A stretch of 64,000 nucleotides of DNA from a virus. Position numbers and translations under genes: made by a program. The stretch spans positions 41,619 to 105,618 of the IMG/VR virus record IMGVR_UViG_3300035698_010625. The stretch is one strand, 5' to 3'. Position 1 is the first letter of the stretch. Each line of letters starts with the position of its first letter. A model generated the notes under the pieces. That model worked only from the letters and a program-made list of their open reading frames with translations, searched no databases and was not told the DNA's origin. Below, in pieces: positions 9,259-22,885 of the stretch.

Positions 9259-9333
9259 GTGGCCGTGGCCGAATGGTTTAGGTGCCTGACTGTGAATCAG
9301 ATTATATGGGTTCAATTCCCATCGGTCACCCCA
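9259..9333 (+). tRNA. tRNA-His (GTG)
   Basis: 75-nt cloverleaf with acceptor GTGGCCG/CGGTCAC, anticodon loop CTGTGAA (GTG) and encoded CCA. First tRNA of the array. Confidence 0.9.
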
Positions 9334-9348
9334 ATGAAAATTTACAAT

Positions 9349-9425
9349 GCCCTTCTAGCTAAACTGGACAAGGCCCTCGGCTACGAACTGAGAGATTGAA
9401 GGTTCGAATCCTTCGGAGGGTACCA
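9349..9425 (+). tRNA. tRNA-Arg (ACG)
   Basis: 77-nt cloverleaf with anticodon loop CTACGAA (ACG, expected to be edited to ICG by host TadA), standard T-arm and encoded CCA. Only 15 bases after tRNA-His. Confidence 0.9.
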
Positions 9426-9441
9426 TATTAAGGAGTTTGTT

Positions 9442-9600
9442 ATGAGTAAATGGGATTACCCCAAGACTAAGAAGAATTCTGATGGAGCAAAACTGACTGC
9501 TGCTGAATTACGCGCACAAAGAAAAGCTCATCGGAAAGCAATTAAAGCTACTGCTCATACTGAACTCAAGACGAAGAAAAATAAAGATCAAATTAAGTAA
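9442..9600 (+). CDS. Small basic protein inside the tRNA array, 52 aa
   Basis: AAGGAG then ATG 9442, giving MSKWDYPKTKKNSDGAKLTAAELRAQRKAHRK... (shown in part). Lysine-rich, helical, likely nucleic-acid binding. It lies between two tRNA genes, so it is probably excised from the same primary transcript. Unknown function. Confidence 0.55.
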   Translation: MSKWDYPKTKKNSDGAKLTAAELRAQRKAHRKAIKATAHTELKTKKNKDQIK

Positions 9601-9605
9601 CAATT

Positions 9606-9682
9606 GGGTGCTTCGTATAACGGCACATTATGTCGGACTCTTAATCCGAACGATCTGGGTTCGAATCCCAGGGTACCCACCA
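9606..9682 (+). tRNA. tRNA-Lys (CTT)
   Basis: 77 nt, acceptor GGGTGCT/GGTACCC, anticodon loop CTCTTAA (CTT), T-arm GGTTCGAATCC, encoded CCA. Confidence 0.9.
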
Positions 9683-9697
9683 AACAAAGGTATTATT

Positions 9698-9970
9698 ATG
9701 GAATTCACTGCTGAACTTGCTAAACAAATAGTTGAAGAAGATCATGATGATTGGGAACAAGTTAATGAAGAATCTTCTAATTCTTCCCGATGGCATACTC
9801 ATTACAGTGGTGTTTATAAAAATACATTAACTGGAAAATACTATGAATTTATTTGGCAGCGTGGTTCTACTGAATATCAAGATGAAGGTACAGAATTTTA
9901 CACTGACCCAATAGAAGCTGTAGAAGTTATTGAAAAATCAGTAACTGTAATGCGCTGGGTTGCTGTTTAG
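9698..9970 (+). CDS. Hypothetical protein, 90 aa
   Basis: Start MEFTAELAKQIV at 9698, 15 bases after the tRNA-Lys CCA end. Acidic, tryptophan- and tyrosine-rich; TGKYYEFIWQRGSTEYQDEGTE suggests a small beta-sheet domain. Not recognised; resembles small proteins common in T4-like accessory regions. 9971-10065 holds a weak hairpin (GCGGAC...) but no gene. Confidence 0.55.
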   Translation: MEFTAELAKQIVEEDHDDWEQVNEESSNSSRWHTHYSGVYKNTLTGKYYEFIWQRGSTEYQDEGTEFYTDPIEAVEVIEKSVTVMRWVAV

Positions 9971-10065
9971 TTTGTACGCGGACGGTACTGCTTGGCAGTC
10001 CACTTGAATATCTTGTGGGTCACTGCACAGTCCGGGTTGAAGAACCTTAAACTTAACTAACAATT

Positions 10066-10141
10066 GCCGGTGAAGCAATCAGGGTATTGCAACTCGTTGT
10101 CTGCGAGAGATAGGAGGGTTCGAGTCCCTTCATCGGCGCCA
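10066..10141 (+). tRNA. tRNA-Asp (GTC)
   Basis: 76 nt, acceptor GCCGGTG/CATCGGC, D stem GCAA/TTGC, anticodon loop TTGTCTG (GTC), encoded CCA. Confidence 0.9.
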
Positions 10142-10147
10142 ATTTTT

Positions 10148-10223
10148 GGGGGATTAGCTCATCTGGGAGAGCGTCTGTTTTGCAAGCAGAAGGTGATCGG
10201 TTCGAGTCCGATATCTTCCACCA
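10148..10223 (+). tRNA. tRNA-Ala (TGC)
   Basis: 76 nt, acceptor GGGGGAT/ATCTTCC with two G:T pairs, anticodon loop TTTGCAA (TGC), encoded CCA. Confidence 0.9.
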
Positions 10224-10258
10224 TTTTACTAGAAAGATTCATATACTTTCTAGACATT

Positions 10259-10336
10259 CGTTCGGTAGCTCAGCCTGGTTAGAGCACCCGTCTGATACGC
10301 GGTAGGTCGAAGGTTCAACTCCTTCTCGAACGACCA
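10259..10336 (+). tRNA. tRNA-Ile (GAT)
   Basis: 78 nt, acceptor CGTTCGG/TCGAACG, anticodon loop CTGATAC (GAT), encoded CCA. Confidence 0.9.
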
Positions 10337-10419
10337 ATTTAAAGAGCTTAGGTGTAGAAACGAGAATGCACCTTTAAGAAAACCTTGTTGCTGGGCTACC
10401 CGATAAATCATCTTCTCAG

Positions 10420-10608
10420 ATGTATGCAACACAAACTTCAGCTCTTCCTTTTGTACTGTCATGCGGGGTCGCCTCGGTGACGAAAGTGCTAGCGGGTACC
10501 GTCTTAGTAACGGTTTCACGAGGTGCAGGACCTCGGGGGTTTTCAGTTTCCACAATCGGGCTAGCTAAAACTGAAGTACAATTTTATTACAATGCTACGT
10601 TCGTCTAA
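10420..10608 (+). CDS. Doubtful small hydrophobic protein, 62 aa
   Basis: Open frame between tRNA-Ile and tRNA-Glu: MYATQTSALPFVLSCGVASV start, hydrophobic throughout, and it runs 15 bases into tRNA-Glu. The DNA here is GC-rich and full of short inverted repeats (for example GGTGCAGGACC), so the stretch may instead be structured RNA. No clear ribosome binding site. Confidence 0.2.
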   Translation: MYATQTSALPFVLSCGVASVTKVLAGTVLVTVSRGAGPRGFSVSTIGLAKTEVQFYYNATFV

Positions 10609-10670
10609 TGGACTAGGACTCTGGGTTTTCACTTCAGATAATATCGGTTCGAATCCGATACGTAGTACCA
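10594..10670 (+). tRNA. tRNA-Glu (TTC)
   Basis: 77 nt, acceptor GCTACGT/ACGTAGT, anticodon loop TTTTCAC (TTC), T-arm ATCGGTTCGAATCCGAT, encoded CCA. Confidence 0.9.
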
Positions 10671-10678
10671 ATTTCAAT

Positions 10679-10754
10679 TCCTAGTTAGTATTCTTGGTGA
10701 GCACGGGTGACTGTTAATCACTTCAGGTAGGTTCGAATCCTACACTAGGAGCCA
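10679..10754 (+). tRNA. tRNA-Asn (GTT)
   Basis: 76 nt, perfect acceptor TCCTAGT/ACTAGGA, anticodon loop CTGTTAA (GTT), encoded CCA. Confidence 0.9.
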
Positions 10755-10760
10755 AATCAA

Positions 10761-10832
10761 TGAGAGTTTAGTTCAAGTTAGAACATCTGGCGCAATAGTC
10801 AGAAGATGCTGGTATCGAATCCAGTCCCTTTC
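10761..10832 (+). tRNA. Degenerate tRNA-like RNA with enlarged loops
   Basis: Has a D stem GTTC/GAAC, a central stem TCTGG/TCAGA closing an 8-nt loop (CGCAATAG) and a T stem GCTGG/CCAGT closing an 8-nt loop instead of 7. The acceptor (TGAGAG/CTTTCA) is imperfect and no CCA follows (CCGA). No anticodon can be assigned safely. Either a decaying tRNA or one with small insertions. Confidence 0.45.
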
Positions 10833-10842
10833 ACCGAATAAT

Positions 10843-10928
10843 GGATGTGATGTACCGGTGGTGGTATAGCGGGCTGTAACCCCGTGGCTCTTATGGGCGA
10901 GTAGGTTCGACTCCTTCCACATCCACCA
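10843..10928 (+). tRNA. tRNA-Tyr (GTA)
   Basis: 86 nt with the long variable arm typical of bacterial tRNA-Tyr, acceptor GGATGTG/CACATCC, anticodon loop CTGTAAC (GTA), encoded CCA. The 88 bases after it hold a CCTA-GTAA-TAGG hairpin but no tRNA. Confidence 0.9.
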
Positions 10929-11016
10929 ATTTCGTTGGCAGTAAGGTCACGCATTGAGATTGACCTCCTAGTAATAGGTACCTGATGGGTAAATTAAAAA
11001 GTGCGATTTCAAATTC

Positions 11017-11094
11017 CGGTGATTAGCTCAGCCTGGTTAGAGCTCTCCGTTTGGGGCGGAGTTGCCAGAGGTTCGAATCCTCTATCACCGACCA
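11017..11094 (+). tRNA. tRNA-Pro (TGG), copy 1
   Basis: 78 nt, perfect acceptor CGGTGAT/ATCACCG, anticodon stem CTCCG/CGGAG with loop TTTGGGG (TGG), encoded CCA. A second tRNA-Pro with the same anticodon lies at 14074. Confidence 0.9.
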
Positions 11095-11187
11095 ATAACT
11101 AATTATCTAATGTGCTTGCCGGCATATGCGGATGATTGCACGAACTTCTATTGATAACAAGCGGTAACTTGTAATCATAAGATGAGT

Positions 11188-11251
11188 TAATTAGTAGTTT
11201 AACGGTAGATCGCCTGGCTGGAAGATGCGGGTTCGAATCCTGTCTAATTAC
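11188..11251 (+). pseudogene. tRNA remnant lacking the anticodon arm
   Basis: Perfect 7-bp acceptor TAATTAG/CTAATTA and a T-arm GCGGGTTCGAATCCTGT are kept, but only about 15 nt (CCTGGCTGGAAGAT) sit where some 22 are needed, so the anticodon stem-loop is deleted. The 3' flank is CTTT, not CCA. The ATGCGGGTTCGA segment resembles Gly tRNAs. Could be dead, or a tRNA-like RNA with another role. Confidence 0.5.
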
Positions 11252-11267
11252 TTTCGTGATTTACAAC

Positions 11268-11342
11268 AGTTCCTTAACTCAGAGGCAGAGTATCGCTTTT
11301 ACACAGCGAAGGTCGAGATTTCGAAATTCTCAGGAACTACCA
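11268..11342 (+). tRNA. tRNA-Val (TAC)
   Basis: 75 nt, perfect acceptor AGTTCCT/AGGAACT, anticodon stem TCGCT/AGCGA with loop TTTACAC (TAC), encoded CCA. Confidence 0.9.
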
Positions 11343-11361
11343 GTAACTAATCAACAGCTCG

Positions 11362-11403
11362 ATGGGAGTCTTGCTATTTGATTGCACAGCGTCTTACTCC
11401 CAT
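11362..11403 (+). ncRNA. Perfect 8-bp hairpin RNA element
   Basis: ATGGGAGT pairs with ACTCCCAT across a 26-nt loop containing TTGATTGCAC. The 5' strand equals the start of the downstream tRNA-Leu (ATGGGAGT), so it may be a shrunken tRNA-Leu relic. TGATTGCAC and CATAAGAT also occur in the same order before the tRNA remnant at 11188, suggesting a duplicated module. Confidence 0.35.
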
Positions 11404-11408
11404 AAGAT

Positions 11409-11479
11409 TTATTGATAGTGTAATGGATGCACACTGGGGTTTAAACCTGGAAGTACGGTTCGATTCCGTGATTAATAAC
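11409..11479 (+). tRNA. Candidate suppressor tRNA (anticodon TTA, reads UAA)
   Basis: 71 nt without CCA. Acceptor TTATTGA/TTAATAA, D stem GTGT/GCAC, five-pair anticodon stem CTGGG/CCTGG closing loop GTTTAAA, which puts TTA at 11441-11443. T-arm TACGGTTCGATTCCGTG. One extra base precedes the 3' acceptor strand and position 32 is G, so folding is slightly irregular. TTA would decode the ochre stop UAA. May be functional, conditionally expressed or decayed. Confidence 0.5.
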
Positions 11480-11530
11480 TTGGGCTGTGATTTACAAATC
11501 GCTTGAGCAACTGCTCGCGTACAATACAAT

Positions 11531-11618
11531 GGGAGTGTGGTGGAATTGGTATACACATTGGTCTTAGAAACCAACGACTGTAATGGTCACGCAGGTTCGA
11601 CTCCTGTCACTCCTACCA
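11531..11618 (+). tRNA. tRNA-Leu (TAG)
   Basis: 88 nt with long variable arm, anticodon stem TTGGT/ACCAA with loop CTTAGAA (TAG), encoded CCA. Confidence 0.9.
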
Positions 11619-11624
11619 ATCAAT

Positions 11625-11692
11625 GTTCGATTAGCATAATGCAATGCGGCAAGTACTTGTAGAAGAAAGCTCGAATCTTTCATCGAACTCCA
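11625..11692 (+). tRNA. tRNA-like RNA with a miniature anticodon arm
   Basis: 68 nt. Acceptor GTTCGAT/ATCGAAC, D stem GCAT/ATGC and T-arm GAAAG/CTTTC are all perfectly paired and CCA is encoded. The anticodon arm is only 12 nt (GCAAGTACTTGT, at most 4 bp closing GTAC), too small to present a normal anticodon. The intact remaining arms argue for selection on a tRNA-like role other than decoding. Confidence 0.5.
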
Positions 11693-11701
11693 AATTTAAA
11701 C

Positions 11702-11775
11702 GCTCAATTAGTTCAATGGTAGAACAACGGCCCGGTAAGTCGTTAACGTAAGTTCGATTCTTACATTGAGCACCA
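11702..11775 (+). tRNA. tRNA-Thr (GGT) with C33
   Basis: 74 nt, perfect acceptor GCTCAAT/ATTGAGC, anticodon loop CCGGTAA (GGT). Position 33, almost always U, is C. Encoded CCA. Confidence 0.85.
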
Positions 11776-11781
11776 ATTAAT

Positions 11782-11858
11782 GCCCGGTTCGTCTAAATAT
11801 TAGGACCTCTGCCATATTTGAGCAGAAAATAAAAGTGAGATTCTTTTACCGGACACCA
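11782..11858 (+). tRNA. Atypical tRNA with a 9-nt anticodon loop
   Basis: 77 nt, acceptor GCCCGGT/ACCGGAC with one mismatch, Glu-like D arm (GGTTCGTCTAA), stem TCTGC/GCAGA enclosing nine bases (CATATTTGA), T stem AAAAG/CTTTT with loop TGAGATT, encoded CCA. The anticodon is not assignable. Enlarged loops are known from frameshift-suppressor tRNAs, but decay is equally possible. Confidence 0.45.
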
Positions 11859-11864
11859 AACAAT

Positions 11865-11937
11865 GCCAAGGTCGTCTAATAATCTAAGACCCTCTCGTGA
11901 TAGAGAGAAATGAGGTGTAAATCCCCCCGAGGCACCA
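11865..11937 (+). pseudogene. Degenerate tRNA-like gene
   Basis: Acceptor GCCAAGG/CCGAGGC with two mismatches, CTCTC/GAGAG stem with a 6-nt loop GTGATA, weak T-arm, CCA encoded. Begins with the same TCGTCTAA D-arm as its Glu-type neighbours, so probably a decayed duplicate of them. Confidence 0.4.
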
Positions 11938-11943
11938 AACAAT

Positions 11944-12019
11944 GCTGGAGTCGTCTAACGGCTAGGACTTTACATTCTCAGTGTAAACAATGCGAGTTCG
12001 AATCTCGTCTCCAGTACCA
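11944..12019 (+). tRNA. tRNA-Glu (CTC)
   Basis: 76 nt, acceptor GCTGGAG/CTCCAGT, anticodon stem TTACA/TGTAA with loop TTCTCAG (CTC), encoded CCA. Confidence 0.88.
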
Positions 12020-12024
12020 AATCT

Positions 12025-12111
12025 GGATTGATCCGCTGGGTAGGCCGGCAGCACGGTTTGAACCCGTGGGTGACCGAAAGGTTAGGGGTTCGACTCCTCA
12101 TCTCTCCGCCA
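12025..12111 (+). tRNA. tRNA-Ser (TGA)
   Basis: 87 nt with long variable arm, anticodon stem CACGG/CCGTG with loop TTTGAAC (TGA), encoded CCA. Two mismatches in the acceptor stem (GGATTGA/TCTCTCC). Confidence 0.85.
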
Positions 12112-12118
12112 ATTTTAT

Positions 12119-12194
12119 CCTTCGCTCGTCTAATGTTAAGACACCAAACCGTGGAGGTTTGGGGATAGAGGTTTGATTCCTTTGCTTAGGACCA
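12119..12194 (+). pseudogene. Atypical tRNA with a non-standard anticodon loop
   Basis: 76 nt with encoded CCA. Stem CAAAC/GTTTG closes CGTGGAG, which lacks U33; by position it could be read as Pro (TGG) or, with a shift, His (GTG). Acceptor CCTTCGC/GCTTAGG has two mismatches. T-arm AGAGG/CCTTT is sound. Probably decaying. Confidence 0.4.
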
Positions 12195-12201
12195 ATTTTA
12201 A

Positions 12202-12250
12202 TGACTACTTCCTATACGTAGGTTAATAACTGAAAAGTTAAGAGTGGTCA
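12202..12250 (+). ncRNA. Three-way-junction RNA with UACG and GAAA tetraloops
   Basis: An 8-bp closing stem (TGACTACT/AGTGGTCA) encloses two hairpins: CCTA-TACG-TAGG (UNCG-type loop) and TAACT-GAAA-AGTTA (GNRA loop). The stretch up to 12347 is also highly pairable (CCCAC/GTGGG around AAACGTT/AACGTTT). No tRNA arms are recognisable. A similar layout recurs at 12707. Confidence 0.5.
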
Positions 12251-12347
12251 CCAAGTTATCCCACACTCATCGAATGGTACGGTAAACGTTAAGAAACGTT
12301 TCGTGGGGAGTTTATCAGAAAGCCGTGACAGATAGACAACTAACAAT

Positions 12348-12421
12348 AGCTGCATAGCATAGTGGTAATGCGGGGGTCTTTGAAACCTCTCAGTAAGGTT
12401 CGATTCCTTATGCGGCTGCCA
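12348..12421 (+). tRNA. tRNA-Gln (TTG)
   Basis: 74 nt, acceptor AGCTGCA/TGCGGCT, D stem GCAT/ATGC, anticodon loop CTTTGAA (TTG), encoded CCA. Confidence 0.88.
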
Positions 12422-12425
12422 ATTT

Positions 12426-12497
12426 TGATGTGGATATAATCTATCCCTTGTGCGGGTGCCCCTAGTAATAGGTCAAGGCAGCAAACTGCTCACATCA
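12426..12497 (+). ncRNA. Cloverleaf-like RNA without tRNA signatures
   Basis: 72 nt, the size of a tRNA, with a perfect 7-bp outer stem TGATGTG/CACATCA, a D-arm-like hairpin GATA/TATC, a T-arm-like hairpin GCAG-CAAA-CTGC and a middle region CCTTG/CAAGG that contains a CCTA-GTAA-TAGG (GNRA) hairpin. There is no TTCGA T-loop, anticodon or CCA. The same GTAA hairpin occurs at about 10968. Confidence 0.45.
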
Positions 12498-12507
12498 GAT
12501 TTAATAT

Positions 12508-12594
12508 GGAAGATTAACTAGACAGGGTTCTAGAGCTGTTTGCTAAACAGATGGTACCGCAAGGTATGAGTTTCGAATACTCAATTTTCCGCCA
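12508..12594 (+). tRNA. tRNA-Ser (GCT)
   Basis: 87 nt with long variable arm, acceptor GGAAGAT/ATTTTCC, anticodon loop TTGCTAA (GCT), encoded CCA. Confidence 0.88.
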
Positions 12595-12623
12595 AACATA
12601 AAGAAAAATTAAGTATTAACAAT

Positions 12624-12698
12624 GGGACTCAGGTGTAACTGGGTGCACGGCGGACTTTTAATCCGTAAGGACAGGGTTCAAGCCCTGGGGTCCCACCA
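12624..12698 (+). tRNA. tRNA-Lys (TTT)
   Basis: 75 nt, acceptor GGGACTC/GGGTCCC, anticodon stem GCGGA/TCCGT with loop CTTTTAA (TTT), encoded CCA. Confidence 0.9.
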
Positions 12699-12706
12699 AA
12701 TGTAAA

Positions 12707-12748
12707 TGGAAATGCTTCGGCATTGTAAAACTCACCGAAAGGTTTCCA
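12707..12748 (+). ncRNA. Three-way-junction RNA with UUCG and GAAA tetraloops
   Basis: TGGAA/TTCCA closes two hairpins: ATGC-TTCG-GCAT (the very stable C-UUCG-G loop) and ACC-GAAA-GGT (GNRA). Same order of a UNCG then a GNRA hairpin as the element at 12202, though the stems differ in sequence, which supports a conserved fold. Confidence 0.5.
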
Positions 12749-12785
12749 CCCAAGTGTGGATATAAAGAAGTTCCGATTAGTCAAT

Positions 12786-12859
12786 GCGTCTAAGTACAAG
12801 GTGTATCCTCGGGTTTCCAACCCGTAGTGAGTGGGTTTCGATTACCCCTAGTCGCTCCA
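12786..12859 (+). tRNA. tRNA-Gly (TCC)
   Basis: 74 nt, acceptor GCGTCTA/TAGTCGC with one T:T mismatch, anticodon loop TTTCCAA (TCC), slightly long T stem, encoded CCA. Confidence 0.82.
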
Positions 12860-12864
12860 ACAAT

Positions 12865-12937
12865 AGTTATCTAGCTCAACTGGCAGAGCACTAGCTTCAT
12901 ACGTTAGGGAATCTCGGTTCAAATCCGAGGGTAACTA
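12865..12937 (+). tRNA. tRNA-Met (CAT), elongator type
   Basis: 73 nt, acceptor AGTTATC/GGTAACT, D arm TAGCTCAACTGGCAGAGCA, anticodon loop TTCATAC (CAT). The 3' flank is CAA, so CCA must be added by the host enzyme. If the cytidine is lysidine-modified it would read AUA as Ile; the sequence alone does not decide. Confidence 0.82.
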
Positions 12938-12977
12938 CAATCTTATAAATACTCTTTTAATAAACGAGTATCAGAAA

Positions 12978-13232
12978 ATGCAAACTTTTAAAAGTTTCAC
13001 CGAAGGAAATGTCGTTAAATTTCCTAAGAAGAAAAAACAAACCCACGATGAAATTACTGGATTGCCAATTGATTCACGTCTTCCAGATACCCCAGACGAA
13101 TGGATGGTTGTATCAAAGGATGAGAGTGTAGCATATAGCACTTCACCAACTCGTCAAGAAGCACAGAAAAAACTTAAGACGTATATGATGAAGACAGGTA
13201 AGAGAGATCTTAAAGTCATCAAATTTGGCTAA
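12978..13232 (+). CDS. Putative capsid-targeted internal protein, 84 aa
   Basis: The N terminus MQTFKSFTEG matches the capsid-targeting sequence of T4 internal proteins (MKTYQEFIAE, then cleavage after x-x-E by the prohead protease). The mature protein would start GNVVKFPKKKKQ and is basic and soluble, ending in LKVIKFG. It contains a DSRLPDTPDEWMVVSKDESVAYS-like (shown in part) domain of unknown role. If packaged, it would enter the cell with the DNA. Confidence 0.6.
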   Translation: MQTFKSFTEGNVVKFPKKKKQTHDEITGLPIDSRLPDTPDEWMVVSKDESVAYSTSPTRQEAQKKLKTYMMKTGKRDLKVIKFG

Positions 13233-13240
13233 GATAATCC

Positions 13241-13269
13241 TCGCCAAGAAGGTCTAAACCATATATAAT
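13241..13269 (+). promoter_or_regulatory. Sigma70-type promoter before tRNA-Gly
   Basis: TCGCCA (13241-13246), 17-bp spacer, TATAAT (13264-13269). The element is nearly identical to the one at 19807 (shared GCCAAGAAGGTC and AAACCATATATAATG), so the two are duplicates. Confidence 0.65.
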
Positions 13270-13280
13270 GATATAACAAA

Positions 13281-13352
13281 GCGGGTATAGCTCAGTGGTA
13301 GAGCGGAACGTTGCCAACGTCCAGGTCGAGAGTTCGAATCTCTCTACCCGCT
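13281..13352 (+). tRNA. tRNA-Gly (GCC)
   Basis: 72 nt, perfect acceptor GCGGGTA/TACCCGC, D arm TAGCTCAGTGGTAGAGC, anticodon loop TTGCCAA (GCC). Followed by CTA, so CCA is not encoded. Confidence 0.9.
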
Positions 13353-13367
13353 CTAATTTAGGATTAT

Positions 13368-13559
13368 ATGATGAATTTGGGACTAACAAGTGATTGTGAG
13401 GCAGAAGCATATTTTGATAGCGCTGATACTTACATCAAACAATACAACGCTACTTATATGTTTGAGAATAGTTCTGCGAGAGTCCGAACTATCATTGCTG
13501 AATATTTTGCTAATCTAGATAATAAAACTATTTGGCTTTGGAAAACTAAGAGTGATTGA
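13368..13559 (+). CDS. Hypothetical protein, 63 aa
   Basis: AGGATT precedes two adjacent ATG codons (13368, 13371). Acidic N terminus, aromatic C terminus (TIWLWKTKSD). Not recognised. Confidence 0.5.
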   Translation: MMNLGLTSDCEAEAYFDSADTYIKQYNATYMFENSSARVRTIIAEYFANLDNKTIWLWKTKSD

Positions 13560-13562
13560 ATC

Positions 13563-13781
13563 ATGCGCCTTATCATTTCGCGGACTAACAATGACAGCAC
13601 TTTGGACTTCGAAGTTCATGATGCACGTTGGGTTACTTTTAGTGATAAAATGAAAGCATTTGCTTGGACTCGTCCGGGTAATAAGCTTGGAATTTACTTC
13701 TCCGAGGAATATGTCAATCGCCGCTTTGTGAACATCTTTTGCATTAGCGCGCTTGAGAACATGCACTGGCAGGTTAAGTGA
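13563..13781 (+). CDS. Hypothetical protein, 72 aa
   Basis: MRLIISRTNNDSTLDF start, 3 bases after the previous stop. Predicted small beta-rich domain with LGIYFSEEYVNRRFVNIF. Not recognised. Confidence 0.5.
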   Translation: MRLIISRTNNDSTLDFEVHDARWVTFSDKMKAFAWTRPGNKLGIYFSEEYVNRRFVNIFCISALENMHWQVK

Positions 13782-13791
13782 GGATTACATT

Positions 13792-13983
13792 ATGTGGATT
13801 CGATTTGAAGAGAAACAACCCAAACAAGATAAAGACCTTTATTACTTCTTCGATGTAGTAGGTGTTCACTCAGGGCGCTATTACGGCGGTGATACATTTC
13901 AAGGCCGAAGAGGTTTTCTCAATGGTGACGTTACTCATTGGCAATATGATAAAGGGCAGGGAAAACCTGCTGAACCAAAATGA
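13792..13983 (+). CDS. DUF551-like protein, 63 aa
   Basis: Starts MWIRFEEKQPKQDKD and ends with VTHWQYDKGQ, with a G-x-Y/F glycine-rich middle. That W-I-x(3)-E-x-x-P ... VTHW pattern is typical of the small DUF551 domain widespread in phages and prophages; its function is unknown. Start fixed by GAGGAT 7 bases upstream. Confidence 0.6.
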   Translation: MWIRFEEKQPKQDKDLYYFFDVVGVHSGRYYGGDTFQGRRGFLNGDVTHWQYDKGQGKPAEPK

Positions 13984-13988
13984 ATAAT

Positions 13989-14065
13989 GCAAGAGTGGCT
14001 CGACTGGTGAAGGCCGGCGTCTTATATGCGTCTATATGTGGGTTCGAATCCCGCCTCTTGTACCA
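13989..14065 (+). tRNA. tRNA-Ile (TAT)
   Basis: 77 nt, acceptor GCAAGAG/CTCTTGT, anticodon stem GGCGT/GCGTC with loop CTTATAT (TAT), encoded CCA. TAT anticodons reading AUA directly are uncommon in bacteria, which usually use lysidine-modified CAT. Confidence 0.8.
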
Positions 14066-14073
14066 AAATATTT

Positions 14074-14150
14074 CAGGGTATAAGTCAGTCTGGTAGACAC
14101 CCCGGTTTGGAACTGGGAAGCCGTTGGTTCGAATCCAACTACCCTGACCA
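14074..14150 (+). tRNA. tRNA-Pro (TGG), copy 2
   Basis: 77 nt, perfect acceptor CAGGGTA/TACCCTG, anticodon stem CCCGG/CTGGG with loop TTTGGAA (TGG), encoded CCA. Sequence differs clearly from copy 1, so it is not a recent duplicate. Confidence 0.9.
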
Positions 14151-14167
14151 TTTAAAGAGAGTACATT

Positions 14168-14428
14168 ATGCTTACATTCAATATTAAAGATTTCTTTTGT
14201 TGGCATAGTATTCAAAAAGAAGAGTCATTTGAAGCTTTTCATGCAAGAGCAGAAGCACTGCATGAAACTTATCAACATTGGACTCCTGTAAATGAAATTG
14301 AAAGAACAAATAGAGCAGTATGTTTTGTATCTTTTATTAACAATCACCCAAAAATCGTAAATCCATATACTGGTAAAACAAAAAAACAATTTTCTTTAAC
14401 GGAATATCCTATATCTACCTTGTCTTAA
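14168..14428 (+). CDS. Hypothetical protein, 86 aa
   Basis: MLTFNIKDFFCWHSIQKEES start, 6 bases after GAGAG. Helical N-terminal half (AFHARAEALHETYQHW) then a basic TGKTKKQF segment. Not recognised. Confidence 0.5.
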   Translation: MLTFNIKDFFCWHSIQKEESFEAFHARAEALHETYQHWTPVNEIERTNRAVCFVSFINNHPKIVNPYTGKTKKQFSLTEYPISTLS

Positions 14429-14451
14429 AGGTTGTATAATGATTATTCAAT

Positions 14452-14527
14452 ACACGGTAAGCAATTATGGTTAATGCGCTGGCTTGAAGTCCCAGATAAC
14501 TAAGTTCGATTCTTAGACCGTGTACCA
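14452..14527 (+). tRNA. tRNA-Phe (GAA)
   Basis: 76 nt, perfect acceptor ACACGGT/ACCGTGT, anticodon loop TTGAAGT (GAA), encoded CCA. A TATAAT at 14435-14440 just upstream may be a local promoter. Confidence 0.88.
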
Positions 14528-14550
14528 ATTTATTATGGAGTGACTGTGAT

Positions 14551-15252
14551 ATGTTTGCTGATTTTTGCACTGATCATTTCTCGACGAGTAACAATGCACA
14601 TTACAGAAATCCGCGAACTGTTGACCAAAATGTAATTGCTAATGAGACAATGCTATTTAGCGCATCTCCAGAATTTGCTACTGCAAATGGTGGCCCACTT
14701 ACTGCTTACTTTCTCTCCAAGCTTTTTGATGGTGGATTTGAAAGCATTGATACTCGAGGAATGCATTGGGTCATTGATACTCGCTCGCACATGCTGATGC
14801 CAGGTCAATTTCCTTCTATTCCAGGTTGGCATTGTGATGCTTGGGAGCGAGATCCAAAGACACAACAACCACTTTTATGGCAGCACCCACATGGTACCGC
14901 TATGCATTTTGTAATGACACTTGGTACTAATGATGATGGTGTATCACTTACAAAATTCATACTTCCTTTTGGTGTGCCGATTCGTGTATCTTACGATCCA
15001 TCCAAAGTTTGGGGTTCTGTAAACGAATCAATTGAACACCAAATTGAAGATCTCGTTATATCACCAGATAGAATTATTAGTGCGCCTTCAGGGACACTCA
15101 TTTCGTTTGGACAAAACATATTACATACGGCTAGTGTAGCTACCAGTAAAGGCTGGCGCTTCTTTGCTCGTATAAGTTTAATGACAAATCCACCACTCAA
15201 CAAAATTCGAAAACAGGTACAAGTTTACGCTGATTCAAATGTTGGTTGGTAA
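14551..15252 (+). CDS. 2-oxoglutarate/Fe(II) oxygenase-like protein
   Basis: 233 residues with the iron-binding triad of the double-stranded beta-helix dioxygenases: H94-x-D96 (PGWHCDAWE) and distal H192 (NILHTAS), followed by an arginine (RFFARIS) in the position that holds 2-oxoglutarate. Such enzymes hydroxylate proteins, nucleic acid bases or small molecules; T4-like cyanophages commonly carry them, usually without known substrates. It is the largest protein gene within the tRNA array. A tRNA- or base-modifying role is attractive given the location but is inference. Confidence 0.7.
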   Translation: MFADFCTDHFSTSNNAHYRNPRTVDQNVIANETMLFSASPEFATANGGPLTAYFLSKLFDGGFESIDTRGMHWVIDTRSHMLMPGQFPSIPGWHCDAWERDPKTQQPLLWQHPHGTAMHFVMTLGTNDDGVSLTKFILPFGVPIRVSYDPSKVWGSVNESIEHQIEDLVISPDRIISAPSGTLISFGQNILHTASVATSKGWRFFARISLMTNPPLNKIRKQVQVYADSNVGW

Positions 15253-15271
15253 ATGAATTAAGGGAAACGTT

Positions 15272-15300
15272 GGTTCGAGTCCAACTCCTGCGCTGGTGCA
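15272..15300 (+). pseudogene. Orphan T-arm (tRNA relic)
   Basis: GTTGG-TTCGAGT-CCAAC, a perfect tRNA T-arm, stands alone after the oxygenase gene. No matching 5' half or acceptor strand is visible in the 80 bases on either side. Confidence 0.35.
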
Positions 15301-15341
15301 AAGGATCGTAATTGATGGCCAAGACACCCTTACGTTACAAT

Positions 15342-15415
15342 GTTGATATGGCAGAATGGTTATGCCGTGGCTTGCAAACCCACTTACTCTGGTTCGATTC
15401 CGGATATCAACTCCA
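15342..15415 (+). tRNA. tRNA-Cys (GCA)
   Basis: 74 nt, perfect acceptor GTTGATA/TATCAAC, anticodon loop TTGCAAA (GCA), encoded CCA. Confidence 0.9.
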
Positions 15416-15467
15416 AGATAAGGCTTTAGCCGCAGCAGAGTAGTCAGGCATGACATAAAAGGTCGAA

Positions 15468-15663
15468 ATGAAAAAGTTTAGCCGGCTCGACCAGCTTTAT
15501 TTCTGAGTTCAAAGGTGGTCCTGAGCACGATGGATATGCACCAATTGTAAAAAATGTCTGTGATGGTGATTATACCGAATTCTCAGTTTGTTTGGAATGT
15601 GGTACTCTGAAAGGTACTTTCCCGGTTGATGATCCTGTTTGGAATGATGAAGAAGAAGATTAA
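15468..15663 (+). CDS. Small protein, interrupted by a +1 frameshift
   Basis: ATG 15468 after AAAAGG gives MKKFSRLDQLYF and then TGA at 15504. One base forward, an open frame continues EFKGGPEHDGYAP ... VCLECGTLKG ... to TAA at 15661, giving 64 residues in all. The FKGGP-x-x-x-G-Y start is typical of small phage proteins. The site reads TTC TGA G, which superficially resembles the prfB-type +1 site (CTT TGA), but a T-run indel error is as likely. Confidence 0.45.
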
Positions 15664-15667
15664 CAAT

Positions 15668-15737
15668 GCGCCGCGCTCTGGGTAAGCAGTATGGTTTCCA
15701 ATGCCTCGCGTGTGGAGTTCGATTCTCTGGCGGCGTG
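15668..15737 (+). pseudogene. Degenerate tRNA-Gly-like gene
   Basis: Acceptor GCGCCGC/GCGGCGT and T-arm TGGAG/CTCTG are intact, and a TTTCCAA loop (TCC, Gly) is visible, but the anticodon stem does not pair properly and CCA is absent (GCACC). Probably a decayed copy of tRNA-Gly (TCC). Confidence 0.4.
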
Positions 15738-15762
15738 CACCTGTAATAGATTAAAGAATAAT

Positions 15763-15838
15763 AAGAGTATAGTATAATGGCTCATTACCCCGGGCTCTGA
15801 ACTCGGTAATCTAGGTTCGAATCCTAGTACTCTTGCCA
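15763..15838 (+). tRNA. tRNA-Gln (CTG)
   Basis: 76 nt, perfect acceptor AAGAGTA/TACTCTT, anticodon stem CCGGG/CTCGG with loop CTCTGAA (CTG), encoded CCA. Confidence 0.9.
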
Positions 15839-15845
15839 AATATAC

Positions 15846-15920
15846 GCCTGCTAAGCATTAATGGTGATGCACTGGTTTTGTAATCCAGAGAAGAGGGATC
15901 GTTACCTTCAGTCGGCACCA
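15846..15920 (+). tRNA. tRNA-Thr (TGT)
   Basis: 75 nt, acceptor GCCTGCT/AGTCGGC with one mismatch, anticodon loop TTTGTAA (TGT), encoded CCA. The T-loop is ATCGTTA rather than TTCGANN, an unusual departure. Confidence 0.75.
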
Positions 15921-15923
15921 AAT

Positions 15924-15997
15924 CGCGAGATGTTGAAATGGCATCCTGCTGGGCTCATAACCCTTCGTTGGCGGTTCAACTCCGTCTTTCGCTACCA
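15924..15997 (+). tRNA. Probable initiator tRNA-fMet (CAT)
   Basis: 74 nt, anticodon loop CTCATAA (CAT). Two initiator hallmarks are present: the first acceptor position is unpaired (C1 opposite T72) and the anticodon stem ends in three consecutive G:C pairs (GGG/CCC). Encoded CCA. The D arm is weak. The other CAT tRNA (12865) lacks both features. Confidence 0.7.
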
Positions 15998-15999
15998 AC

Positions 16000-16110
16000 T
16001 TTGTGAGATCGTCAAGTGTAATTATGTTAAAGCCCGAGATGATGACATTACAAAATGTACGAATCGGTTAATCTTTAACTAGCACAAGGGACATCTCACA
16101 AACTTTTTTA
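16000..16110 (+). ncRNA. Structured RNA closed by a 10-bp stem and T run
   Basis: TTTGTGAGAT (16000-16009) pairs perfectly with ATCTCACAAA (16093-16102), followed by CTTTTTT, as in an intrinsic terminator with a large internal domain. Inside, TGTAAT/ATTACA and TTAA/TTAA can pair. No protein or tRNA pattern. Could be a discrete small RNA or a terminator/processing element. Confidence 0.4.
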
Positions 16111-16111
16111 T

Positions 16112-16250
16112 GTTGTAACTGCAAGGATAATGCAGGGTGGTTGGAGAGCTTGTGAGGGTGTACAACCTTTTATCCACAGGTATAAAGTTAGCTTTAACAA
16201 ATCGAGGCGCTTTATAAATCTCTAGTGAAGTTCGATTCTTCATTACAACA
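16112..16250 (+). ncRNA. tRNA-like RNA with a roughly 70-90-nt insert
   Basis: Perfect acceptor GTTGTAA/TTACAAC and a perfect T-arm TGAAG-TTCGATT-CTTCA bracket a 139-nt unit. A D-arm-like GCA/TGC follows the 5' strand, but the anticodon region is replaced by a long segment able to form GGTTG/CAACC and ATAAAG/CTTTAT stems. Ends ACTT with no CCA. The plan (tRNA acceptor and T-arm with a long insert) recalls tmRNA or an intron-bearing tRNA, but no intron or tag-coding signature is seen. Confidence 0.4.
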
Positions 16251-16258
16251 CTTTCAAT

Positions 16259-16346
16259 GGGAGTATGGTGGAATTGGTATACACAGCAGACTTAAAATCT
16301 GCCGCCTGTAATGGGCTCGGGGGTTCGAATCCCTCTACTCCTACCA
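16259..16346 (+). tRNA. tRNA-Leu (TAA)
   Basis: 88 nt with long variable arm, anticodon stem GCAGA/TCTGC with loop CTTAAAA (TAA), encoded CCA. Its 5' half is nearly identical to tRNA-Leu (TAG) at 11531. Confidence 0.9.
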
Positions 16347-16359
16347 AATTAAGGTAAAT

Positions 16360-16512
16360 ATGATGCAGGAAACAAGCACTAAAACTATAGCAGATAAAGA
16401 AGCATTGATTCTGTCTGCTGGTGAATGTTATCCAGATACATCTAGTTTTATACGAGATGAAGTTGTGAAAGACATTAATTTTAAGCTAGTTGATAAGATG
16501 TGGGGCAAATAA
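16360..16512 (+). CDS. Hypothetical protein, 50 aa
   Basis: AAGG then ATGATG at 16360; product begins MMQETSTKTIADKEAL and is helical. Overlaps the next gene's GTG start by 13 bases. Not recognised. Confidence 0.45.
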   Translation: MMQETSTKTIADKEALILSAGECYPDTSSFIRDEVVKDINFKLVDKMWGK

Positions 16513-16775
16513 CGAGTGTTGCTCATGCTCCAACCTTCATATACAATGGTGAATGTAAACCTTGTGTAAGTAGGTTGTACCGTAGCTATTTGAGATACAC
16601 TTATATAACTGCTGCACACATTAATGCACTGGTGTATGACATGGTAGTGGAATTAGATGATTTACTTATAGATGCTTCTGAATTTCACCCATATATGATG
16701 GCGATACCACAATTAGCTGAAGAAGAATATATTGAATTTAATCGAATTGCATTCAAACTTCGATTTGCATTTTAA
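16500..16775 (+). CDS. Hypothetical protein, 91 aa, GTG start
   Basis: The frame has no early ATG; GTG at 16500 overlaps the previous gene. It carries a CKPC motif at about residues 19-22 and an acidic C-terminal half (VVELDDLLIDASEF). Function unknown. The start is the least certain part. Confidence 0.45.
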   Translation: MGQITSVAHAPTFIYNGECKPCVSRLYRSYLRYTYITAAHINALVYDMVVELDDLLIDASEFHPYMMAIPQLAEEEYIEFNRIAFKLRFAF

Positions 16776-16786
16776 AGATTAACAAT

Positions 16787-16861
16787 GCCCCGGGTGTTGG
16801 ATACACAGCAGAGGTTTCTACCCTCAGCCTTCTGGGTTCGACTCCTAGTCGGGGTACACCA
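16787..16861 (+). tRNA. tRNA-Arg (TCT)
   Basis: Acceptor GCCCCGG/TCGGGGT, anticodon loop TTTCTAC (TCT). The 3' end reads ACACCA, two bases longer than normal before CCA, so CCA may need trimming and re-addition. Confidence 0.8.
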
Positions 16862-19005: not shown

Positions 19006-19006
19006 T

Positions 19007-19075
19007 GGCTGACACGGTGACTACCTGGCTTTCAATCCAAAGGAGTTTAGGGTTCGATTCCCTTATCAGCCACCA
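19007..19075 (+). pseudogene. Short tRNA-like gene with a reduced D arm
   Basis: 69 nt. Acceptor GGCTGA/TCAGCC, T-arm AGGG/CCCT with TTCGATT loop and encoded CCA are good, but the D arm is only GGT-GACT-ACC and the anticodon stem is poor around CTTTCAA (would read TTC, Glu). Either a decaying tRNA-Glu or a D-arm-reduced tRNA. Confidence 0.4.
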
Positions 19076-19213: not shown

Positions 19214-19534
19214 ACGATATCATGTAGTAGTTTAAATGTTGGCATTATGAGGAAAGGTGAAGATTATTTGAAAGTAAAATTAAGTTAGTAGCAATTCTGT
19301 AGTGGTGATGTAACGAGACGTGTAGGTAAAAACGTGAGCCAAATGAAAGATTGGACAGGCATCATCATCGAGGGCGTTGCGAATTCTTCTTTTGAACCCT
19401 TTAATTAGTAACCTTTACTTACGTGTCACACGGAAAAACGCTAGGAACCCCCCCGCTTACGCGTCTCTTAATCCTGGATATCCACGGTTCAATACCGGGC
19501 TACATGGCCAATTTCTTGAAACGGAGTTTATAAT
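19214..19534 (+). other. 320-base stretch without a clear gene; tRNA relic near its end
   Basis: No convincing coding frame. Near 19413 there is GTAACCTTTACTTACGTGT, similar to the operators at 8917/9017. At about 19465-19513, CTCTTAATCC and CGG-TTCAATA-CCG look like the anticodon loop and T-arm of a degraded tRNA-Lys. The first 200 bases are A/G-rich and could be structured RNA, but I see no definite fold. Confidence 0.4.
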
Positions 19535-19780
19535 ATGAATGATTATTTTAATGCGTTTATTATGATTTTGGTTATAGCGATAGTAACAAATGTTGGTTGG
19601 ATTATTAATTATGATGATCTTAAAACACTTCATGAAAAGGCGTTAAGTATTCATAAGATTGAAGTCATGCAACATAGACAAGCTATTTGTCGTAGTGCAA
19701 CAGCTGAACACGCAACTAATACTGCTACACTCTTCGAAGCAATCAATAAGCTCAATTCTGCTGCTAAGGCTGCAGAATAA
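19535..19780 (+). CDS. Membrane-anchored hypothetical protein, 81 aa
   Basis: GGAG before ATG 19535. N-terminal transmembrane helix (FNAFIMILVIAIVTNVGWII) and a helical, alanine-rich soluble tail (HKIEVMQHRQAICRS ... NSAAKAAE). Single-pass anchor with a coiled-coil-like tail; function unknown. Confidence 0.55.
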   Translation: MNDYFNAFIMILVIAIVTNVGWIINYDDLKTLHEKALSIHKIEVMQHRQAICRSATAEHATNTATLFEAINKLNSAAKAAE

Positions 19781-19806
19781 TTTACTTTAATGGCATAAGA
19801 TATACC

Positions 19807-19835
19807 TTGCCAAGAAGGTCGAAACCATATATAAT
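19807..19835 (+). promoter_or_regulatory. Sigma70-type promoter for the large RNA
   Basis: TTGCCA (19807-19812), 17-bp spacer, TATAAT (19830-19835). Near-duplicate of the promoter at 13241. Transcription would start about 19842, exactly where the structured RNA begins. Confidence 0.75.
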
Positions 19836-19841
19836 GGTACT

Positions 19842-20290
19842 ATAATCTGAACACAAACTAATAGATTGGGTCGCGTGGGATCCATAAGATAAGTAGCAGT
19901 AATGTTACGAAAGGCTATCTCATTTACGGATAGCGCCACTTTTATGAAGGTGGACATCTACGCAAGCCAAGCTCTTTACGGGTACCTCCGGGTGCTCTGG
20001 AAGATAAGTTGTGACCGACAAACACATCCAGGCCAACGGTGAGGATGATAGATTCCGCAAGAATCTCGGGTCAAGCAAAAGCAACGAACTTCAATGAGCA
20101 AAGGGTAGATTGAAAAGTTAAGCTTGCAGGTAAGGCTTTCAATCAATACGATAGGTGAAAGAAGATACAGCCTTCTGGAATCTAGAAATATTGCTAAGTA
20201 GCTCGCAAGGCGAAAGGTACGAGGTGGGTGGTATTTGGTAACTCAAAGGTTATTGAGCCACAGGCATTCGCTCATCTTAAAATGTAAATA
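19842..20290 (+). ncRNA. Large structured noncoding RNA, 5' part
   Basis: About 450 bases with no coding frame but dense helices: AATCT/AGATT near the start, GCTATC/GATAGC, CCAC/GTGG, AGATTCC-GCAA-GAATCT (GNRA), GATTGAAA/TTTCAATC, CTCAA/TTGAG, and AGTAGCT-CGCAA-GGCGAA, which fits an E-loop (AGUA/GAA) under a hairpin. A strong dedicated promoter, size, density of GNRA and E-loop motifs and position among phage tRNAs recall the GOLLD class of giant phage RNAs; I cannot verify the match by eye. Confidence 0.6.
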
Positions 20291-20294
20291 TGTA

Positions 20295-20369
20295 AACGGA
20301 ATAGGGGAATAGGTACACCCGCCCGGCCGCCAAAGCCAGGATCTGTTGGTTCGAATCCAACTTTCGTTA
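20295..20369 (+). tRNA. Divergent tRNA-Trp (CCA)
   Basis: 75 nt, acceptor AACGGAA/TTTCGTT (7 pairs), strong T-arm GTTGG-TTCGAAT-CCAAC, anticodon stem with GGC/GCC closing loop CGCCAAA, giving anticodon CCA but G instead of U at position 33. 3' flank is TCA, so CCA is not encoded. It is the only Trp tRNA in the window and lies between two parts of the large RNA. Followed by a GTTATCA/TGATAAC hairpin. Confidence 0.55.
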
Positions 20370-20384
20370 TCAACTTTGTATTGA

Positions 20385-20838
20385 TAACAAATCTTAAATG
20401 CAAAGACGAATGCCACCGTGAAGTGGAAATTGCTTAATCCTCAAACCCATAGGGTAATTGAGGTTCAGGATGCTCGCAAGGCGGATTGAATTAGTTGGAG
20501 TCACAGGTAAATTCTTAGCGGAGTTACACAGCCCAGCAAGGCTGACCGGTCGATGAATGCTGAAAAGCTCGCGGATAGAGGAATCGCTACCTCTTTAAAC
20601 AAAGCAGCAATGGTTGATTACTATGCCGCTCTTCGGAGGGTAAAGTGGAAAAGAGAAGAACCTAGCGGATCGCACCGTGTGGATAATTTCTCGAAGGATC
20701 AACTGCATATGAGTATATTCTCAACTCATCTGTTTACTTATGGCAGGTTGTACGTTCTCTGCCTTAAACGTACTGGCTTTCTGGGGAGGCTCAGATAACC
20801 GGGTAGTTCACCTAACTACCTGCCATAAGTAAATAGGA
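20385..20838 (+). ncRNA. Large structured noncoding RNA, 3' part
   Basis: Another 450 bases of structured sequence: CCTCAA/TTGAGG around ACCC/GGGT, a CTC-TTCG-GAG hairpin, AGAGG/CCTCT, and at the end a domain of 101 nt closed by a perfect 15-bp stem (20733-20747 with 20819-20833) holding a GTAGTT/AACTAC hairpin. Probably continuous with the 5' part, the total being about 1 kb, with or without the tRNA-Trp as a built-in domain. A reading frame at 20553-20798 overlaps it but has no ribosome site. Confidence 0.6.
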
Positions 20839-20845
20839 AGATAAT

Positions 20846-20974
20846 ATGAACATTGATAAAGTTGAACTTCAGAAGATCTTTCTTGAAGTTTTTACTAAAC
20901 ACCCAGAAGCTGCAAAGATTTTTCTAAAGGGTAATAACTATGAGCACGACCCCTACAAGAAGTTTGAGAGTTGA
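20846..20974 (+). CDS. Hypothetical protein, 42 aa
   Basis: AGGAAG then ATG 20846, MNIDKVELQKIFLEVFTKHP; acidic, helical. Overlaps the next gene by 35 bases. Unknown. Confidence 0.45.
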   Translation: MNIDKVELQKIFLEVFTKHPEAAKIFLKGNNYEHDPYKKFES

Positions 20975-21239
20975 AAGATCATATACAAATAAGTTTAACC
21001 AAGTAATTGAAGTTGGTGATGAAGTAGTATTTGTTGCAACTTCTTGGGGTGGTACTGATATTCGCCAAGGTGTTTATCTTGGATATTACCCACGCACTGG
21101 TTGGGATGGTCGCCCTGCACTTCATGCTGCTAGTGTATCATACATTGGTAAGGAGTGGGATGGAAGAAAATGGATTGACGATGCAGTACTTCATTCTGTT
21201 CTTGAACTCGGTCGTGTTTTCAAAATTGAGAAAGTATAA
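20940..21239 (+). CDS. Small beta-barrel-like protein, 99 aa (paralogue 1)
   Basis: Shares the pattern S-[YF]-x-N-x(5)-IEVGD-x-V-x-x-VA with its downstream neighbour, so the two are tandem paralogues. The IEVGDEVVFVA start and glycine/aromatic spacing suggest an SH3-like barrel. Function unknown. Its TAA overlaps the next ATG by one base. Confidence 0.55.
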   Translation: MSTTPTRSLRVERSYTNKFNQVIEVGDEVVFVATSWGGTDIRQGVYLGYYPRTGWDGRPALHAASVSYIGKEWDGRKWIDDAVLHSVLELGRVFKIEKV

Positions 21240-22213: not shown

Positions 22214-22437
22214 ATGAAGTATTATGTAGATTCTATGAGACATTTGGTATGTGTGCCTTACAGTATATCTAATCTACATAAATGGCAGAAGTGTTAGAAA
22301 TTAATCGTTGTTGGTTTCACAAAAATCATTACGACGTACCTAAAAGAAGAATCAAAGAAATCCAAGCAAAAGCTACATTAGTATCTCCTCGAATTATTTT
22401 GAAGATTACTAAAGGTGAAGGATATGAACACCCTTGA
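22214..22437 (+). CDS. DUF4031 protein, split by a -1 frameshift
   Basis: The first frame gives MKYYVDSMRHLVCVPYSISN and stops after KWQKC. Shifting back one base at AAA (about 22281) continues MAEVLEINRCWF-HKNHYDVPKRR-IKEIQAKAT... to TGA at 22435. Joined, the protein has the DUF4031 signature (YVD at the start, then W/F-F-x(3)-HYDVP). DUF4031 proteins are of unknown function and common in phages. Nothing but the frame break argues against a working gene; see the frameshift finding. Confidence 0.6.
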
Positions 22438-22885
22438 CTCTTTTTCTAACTGCATGCCTATTACGAACTTTGGAGACGAAGACACTCGTTTTCTCAGTAA
22501 CTTTTGGATGCCAGTAATAGGGCTTGAAGGTCCTTCGGTAGAACACGTGTACGCCGCTGCTAAAGCGGTTTCAGAACTTGACCGTGAAGCAATTCTCGCT
22601 TGCCAAACTCCTGGTCAAGCTAAGCGCCTTGGGTCCAAGGTTCAAAAAATCAAGTGCTGGGATGACATTAAACTAAACGTTATGTTCTCTGCACTTCTGA
22701 TAAAATTCAACTTTAAGAAAAATCCGGAACTTGCTAGACAGTTGCTTCTAACTAAGGATCGTGACATAATAGAAGGAAACACCTGGGGAGACACTTTCTG
22801 GGGGACTTGCAACGGTAAAGGTGAGAACCATTTAGGAAAACAGTTAATGGAAATAAGATCCCTATTAACTCGTTGTGATATATAG
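22424..22885 (+). CDS. NADAR (YbiA-like) domain protein
   Basis: 153 residues. Typical NADAR signatures: TRFLSNFWMP near the N terminus, SVEHVYAAAKA (catalytic-site glutamate region), AKRLGSKV, W-x-x-IKLNVM, and the closing NTWGDTFWGTC...GENHLGKQLMEIR. NADAR enzymes are N-glycosidases acting on ADP-ribosylated substrates; some remove ADP-ribose from guanine in DNA and protect against DarT/DarG-type systems. A role in countering host ADP-ribosylating defences is inference. Overlaps the end of the DUF4031 gene. Confidence 0.85.
   Translation: MNTLDSFSNCMPITNFGDEDTRFLSNFWMPVIGLEGPSVEHVYAAAKAVSELDREAILACQTPGQAKRLGSKVQKIKCWDDIKLNVMFSALLIKFNFKKNPELARQLLLTKDRDIIEGNTWGDTFWGTCNGKGENHLGKQLMEIRSLLTRCDI

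Follow-up and report, generated by a model that had tools for sequence, protein, structure and literature searches.

Here, we propose that a T4-like phage encodes a divergent GOLLD RNA with a 107-base 3' appendage, that this RNA would form a cage, and that its linker would carry a tethered tRNA mimic. Taken jointly, we regard this reading as likely. As judged from its sequence, positions 19842-20838 of the window (the whole 64,000-nucleotide stretch of viral DNA analysed here) encode a giant structured RNA that is a divergent GOLLD of a T4-like phage. Hallmarks of GOLLD RNAs are an abundant long transcript that rises in the lytic cycle and a homo-oligomeric 14-mer cage. The atomic structure of such cages exists, along with a published proposal that something is housed in them, perhaps phage tRNAs, but their function is not known.

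The Rfam GOLLD model RF02032 finds a single match in the 105.6 kb virus record. This match is full length (model positions 1-416) and reaches 151.6 bits with E 1.8e-40 in a whole-window scan, exceeding the curated cut-off of 150 bits by just 1.6 bits. Because this margin is thin, we turned to the GOLLD 5' domain, which lies outside the Rfam model and hence offers an independent test of homology. A profile made from 81 other phage GOLLDs, covering their 5' regions and leaving the window out, matches upstream at two places (E 6.9e-7 and E 6.5e-11, in the order of Table 1), which are collinear and the only ones in the 64 kb. The end of the profile overlaps the first part of the Rfam match, with 19862-19973 and 20072-20220 lying outside it. 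The other GOLLDs had been gathered by pattern scans of viral contigs and confirmed either by Rfam or with a 3'-domain profile in nhmmer. From the first to the last homologous base, GOLLD homology extends over 866 bases (19862-20727), and the window RNA has the second, less conserved 5' domain and the total length over 800 bases often seen in GOLLDs. It also has the phage location near a tRNA island (27 tRNAs upstream and a tRNA-Leu downstream) and the variable linker, here about 110 bases with a tRNA-like insert where the model leaves A-rich sequence unaligned.

Could the region instead represent a large RNA of a new class, or the match be a chance one near the cut-off? The narrow margin would be in keeping with this, as would the roughly 19 consensus positions left unaligned (one consensus hairpin among the unaligned parts) and the lack of any DNA-level similarity to the region in 50,697 phage records. 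The E-value and full-length alignment, the separate 5'-region profile matching upstream in the right order, and the tRNA-like insert sitting at the same GOLLD position as in relatives nevertheless make it extremely improbable. The first-pass annotation had named GOLLD as its leading candidate, with a new class as the alternative, and had suggested an Infernal search with GOLLD, HEARO, OLE and ROOL models. In our window scan, which covered all of Rfam, GOLLD matched, and the HEARO, OLE and ROOL models gave no match at gathering, nor at E<=1 over 19700-21000. Thus, given the RF02032 match and the independent 5'-domain test, a new class is not needed. An Archaeal RNase P hit in the RNA region (18.2 bits vs a cut-off of 84) was dismissed as chance. 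The nearest fetched 3' domain is 57% identical to that of the window and, in a 300-base tree read for topology only, the window forms a long branch among the tRNA-bearing GOLLDs, most of which cluster together.

Other parts of the first-pass description bear scrutiny as well. The dedicated promoter that it reported exists as a sigma70-type match, which ranks first among 14 promoter matches in the 2.8 kb scanned, with the giant RNA starting shortly 3' of it. In relatives, the sigma70 consensus precedes GOLLD in 6% of cases vs 7% in shuffles, and with no enrichment we ruled out a conserved sigma70 promoter as a GOLLD family feature. We likewise find no credible gene in the roughly 1000 bases described as gene-free: the longest plus-strand ORF within the RNA region (20553-20798, 81 aa) gave no match in a Pfam search and was rejected as a gene, being without a protein family and crossing the GOLLD 3' domain. 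The many helices claimed agree with the folding energy of the 997 bases, which lies below that of 20/20 dinucleotide shuffles (z -4.7), and UUCG and GCAA loops, of the UUCG and GNRA kinds listed, are readable in the sequence.

The final domain with its perfect 15-bp stem had also been assigned to the GOLLD-like RNA. The stem is exact (TTTACTTATGGCAGG at 20733-20747 pairs with CCTGCCATAAGTAAA at 20819-20833) and is part of a predicted 19-bp closing stem (20730-20748 with 20818-20836); the last 111 bases of the region fold better than 200/200 shuffles (z -5.7). The domain is, however, not part of GOLLD proper, which ends near 20727, and no counterpart of it was found among the fetched GOLLD loci. 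By this comparison it is a 3' appendage added to GOLLD, and it ends right ahead of a likely ribosome-binding site. Separately, 13/14 bases of the stem (TTACTTATGGCAGG) are repeated at window 32148-32161 inside a helicase-like gene. Three stem-arm matches, including both arms, were found in the window vs 0.4 expected, and this recurrence is probably due to chance.

Table 1. Features of the GOLLD locus, in window coordinates
Feature	Position	Strand	Description
Array of 27 tRNA genes	9259..16857	+	upstream of GOLLD, same strand
Sigma70-type promoter match TTGCCA-17-TATAAT	19807..19835	+	upstream of giant RNA; 11/12 consensus positions
GOLLD 5' domain	19862..20220	+	profile from relatives' 5' regions matches 19862-19973 and 20072-20246
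GOLLD 3' domain	20221..20727	+	full-length RF02032 match, broken by linker insert
tRNA-Trp(CCA)-like element	20295..20369	+	ARAGORN and Rfam; within GOLLD linker
8-bp hairpin GTTATCAA/TTGATAAC	20366..20388	+	overlaps and competes with the element's acceptor 3' strand
Extra 3' domain	20730..20836	+	107 bases; 19-bp closing stem including perfect 15 bp

The record carries T4-like terminase, sheath, portal and capsid proteins (ORFs judged by eye) and a gp43-like polymerase with about 42% identity to cyanophage homologues; a search of IMG/VR by DNA polymerase confirmed no close relatives of the phage. Several neighbours of the RNA are worth recording. Just upstream of GOLLD lies a 290-base gene-free stretch (19221-19510) with tRNA-like ends, in which CATGTAG pairs with CTACATG, followed by G-CCA and preceded by a T-arm-like hairpin. 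It shows no Rfam match to E 5 besides a weak tRNA-Sec match elsewhere and folds no better than shuffles (z -0.1); it may be a tmRNA-like RNA or a tRNA that is split or interrupted. A tRNA-like sequence missed by ARAGORN (19006-19072; 18 bits, tRNA-Sec) has a T arm and ACCA at its end. At 11410-11479, ARAGORN predicts a tRNA that lacks CCA and, by its TTA anticodon, reads the stop codon UAA; Rfam matches it weakly, at 30 bits. It may be a suppressor tRNA or a degenerate one. Host-type genes near the RNA encode an NMT1/TAXI-like binding protein (17260-18084), a NADAR domain (22415-22885) and a phosphate-permease-like protein (24522-25355; PHO4 match below cut-off).

The tRNA-Trp-like element, of which the first-pass annotation made no mention, occupies the part of GOLLD that the RF02032 model leaves unaligned. 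By itself its folding energy is nothing special (z 0.2), and the support for it is comparative. One option is that it is a working tRNA-Trp gene. GOLLD would then be a precursor from which RNase P and RNase Z excise the tRNA, CCA would be added, and the two halves of GOLLD would be held together by folding. Its CCA anticodon fits this, and seven possible acceptor pairs together with an otherwise uncovered Trp, the sole amino acid without a tRNA among the other 28 on the record, are what would be expected of a working tRNA that rounds out the 20 amino acids; a few relatives (L226, L243) also have near-intact linker elements with encoded CCA. Against it, the anticodon loop CGCCAAA has G33 rather than the U33 in a seven-base loop of a functional tRNA-Trp, a U33 found in 27/28 of the other window tRNAs. 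The element also lacks the CCA encoded by 24/28 of these neighbours, its anticodon stem contains an A-C pair, its D stem has 3 bp, and its discriminator is A (bacterial TrpRS prefers G). The seven acceptor pairs can form in isolation, but in sequence context the overlapping hairpin wins, as seen in the minimum-energy structure of 20285-20400. In relatives, moreover, the acceptor end is usually unpairable, and the real tRNA-Trp may sit elsewhere, since the record is incomplete. The element probably descends from a captured tRNA-Trp, whose capture may have been recent, and it could even be a working tRNA. Given its several defects, the hairpin that competes with it and the family pattern described below, the working tRNA is the less likely of these, and we consider excision from a GOLLD precursor decidedly unlikely. 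The change from U33 to G is shared with an Arg-like roseophage element (CGTCTAA; L183, L184, L241).

To place the element in its family, we used a pattern combining a T arm with a motif downstream in GOLLD, which retrieved 87 viral contigs, most with a GOLLD 3' domain. From the same loci and with one program, 56 distinct linker elements were compared with 619 distinct array tRNAs; these are counts of related sequences rather than independent events, so that Fisher values overstate significance. An acceptor stem without mismatch is present in 2/56 linker elements (4%) vs 538/619 array tRNAs (87%), encoded CCA in 3/56 (5%) vs 494/619 (80%), and a 7-base anticodon loop in 44/56 (79%) vs 617/619 (99.7%). 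Only 30% of linker elements, vs 95% of array tRNAs, combine U33 in a seven-base loop with no more than one mismatch in the acceptor. Allowing linker elements nine registers for a full 7-bp acceptor leaves the contrast in place (2/56 vs 533/619), and outside the largest lineage a perfect acceptor occurs in 2/19 elements and CCA in 1/19. As the selecting pattern demanded a good T arm, T-arm conservation is no evidence here; acceptor, D stem, anticodon and CCA were free of selection by the pattern. A linker-blind pattern gave 0/34 GOLLD records with an ARAGORN tRNA inside GOLLD, and the 56-element survey is therefore no estimate of prevalence: a tRNA-like linker element is, on these comparisons, the mark of a GOLLD subgroup. 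Matches of the T-arm/GOLLD pattern in a scan of GTDB genomes were background, as no fetched contig had a GOLLD 3' domain by nhmmer. Two further observations concern individual loci. In roseophages MD18, DSS3_MAL1, DSS3P8 and V10 (L183, L184, L186, L187), a permuted tmRNA gene follows within about 300 bases after GOLLD, and locus L261 has a partial GOLLD 3'-domain match (1832-1913) about 650 bases ahead of the full one (2488-2811).

Linker elements that rarely close an acceptor stem might simply be functionless captured tRNAs in decay, with the GOLLD linker merely tolerating insertions. The linker is indeed variable and disordered (PMC12286853), it is shortened and without an ARAGORN tRNA in roseophages DSS3P8 and V10, the element in some linkers is weak (L173, 33 bits), and anticodon loops drift freely. 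Yet decay would damage stems as readily as loops. A first covariation test could have reflected differences older than the capture of different tRNAs, and it was therefore rerun inside one lineage of 31 elements having the 5' motif TTCGC or TCGC in common. Within this lineage, the D, anticodon and T stems are paired at 98-100% with many compensatory changes on both sides, and the covariation score is 0.51, vs 0.16 for shuffles and <=0.10 for slid structures. The D-loop GG is invariant in linker elements. By comparison, 0/31 pair at acceptor position 2 and about half at position 3. The invariance of the 5' distal acceptor strand is also at odds with decay, and since its supposed partner strand varies, this 5' strand is probably retained for another contact. 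Although gene conversion from array tRNAs could partly imitate such maintenance of stems, we consider decay unlikely.

The anticodon loop behaves otherwise. When pairs are nearly identical (outside-loop difference <=5%), 43% of linker pairs (n=14) have different anticodons vs 0% of array pairs (n=80), and the divergence of the loop is 8 times that of the rest in linker elements, vs 0.8 in the array. The range for linker anticodon loops is 4-8 times the divergence of the remainder. A free anticodon loop alongside maintained stems means, therefore, that decoding is not under selection, whereas the tRNA shape appears to be. Taking these sequence comparisons together, the linker element is mostly a maintained tRNA mimic and not a decoding gene.

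What might such a mimic do? As a member of its family, the window GOLLD would probably self-assemble into a hollow RNA cage, with the tRNA-like structure of the linker sitting inside as in the published GOLLD structure. The mimic would remain tethered there rather than be excised as a mature tRNA, because excision would split the GOLLD chain. More speculatively, the broken acceptor ends may protect the chain from cleavage by RNase P and by 3' processing, and the mimic might be bait for something that recognises a tRNA by its shape, for example a defence nuclease directed at tRNAs, an enzyme that handles tRNAs or the ribosome. Bait for such nucleases is plausible because phage tRNAs with mutated anticodon loops are reported to escape host defences directed at tRNAs (PMC10264068). 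The broader proposal, that a large class of GOLLDs has inside its shell a selected non-decoding mimic with a hypervariable anticodon loop that baits host tRNA-acting proteins, for instance anti-phage anticodon nucleases, is possible, though we hold it to be doubtful. If it is true, GOLLD would serve as an RNA compartment for counter-defence or for the capture of cargo. Speaking against the joint reading of cage, appendage and tethered mimic are the 1.6-bit Rfam margin, the seven acceptor pairs of the window element, the Trp gap and the retention of U33 in 52/56 linker elements. Under that reading, the tethered cargo inside the cage would mostly be no usable tRNA but a mimic that has preserved its fold and neither its decoding loop nor its loading end, and the purpose of the cage becomes a testable question, namely what binds the mimic. 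Our findings also call for a correction of annotation, as GenBank records such as those of phages MD18 and DSS3_MAL1 give linker elements as ordinary tRNA genes.

The closest known system is GOLLD itself (RF02032), for which the env-38 14-mer has been solved by cryo-EM, with the linker inside the cage and tRNAs occasionally present in GOLLD linkers (Kretsch et al. 2025, PMC12286853). That paper also cites reported ribosome binding of GOLLD in pull-downs. The window RNA resembles it in its full 3' domain, homologous 5' domain, phage host, tRNA neighbourhood and variable linker, which in known GOLLDs sometimes has a tRNA; it differs in its low identity to the nearest fetched relative, its unaligned consensus hairpin, its tRNA-Trp-like insert with G33 and its extra 3' domain. 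We found no earlier report of a general mimic pattern across phage GOLLDs, for which the precedents are linker tRNAs and one mycobacterial case. In the latter, a tRNA-like gene in a GOLLD linker, as in the window, was called a pseudo tRNA and went undetected as RNA by northern blot (PMC6582537). That is a pseudogene in one species, whereas the present pattern spans many phages with stems maintained. ROOL is similarly a phage RNA found near tRNA islands, where the linker lies within a hollow cage formed by the RNA (PMC12286853), but has another sequence, fold and stoichiometry, and no Rfam ROOL match occurs in the window. A tRNA-shaped module within a larger RNA is also known from tmRNA and from bacterial Y RNAs (Chen et al. 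2014). Unlike these, the linker elements keep all four arms and their carrier RNA is a phage GOLLD; and while the acceptor of tmRNA stays chargeable, that of GOLLD linker elements mostly does not.
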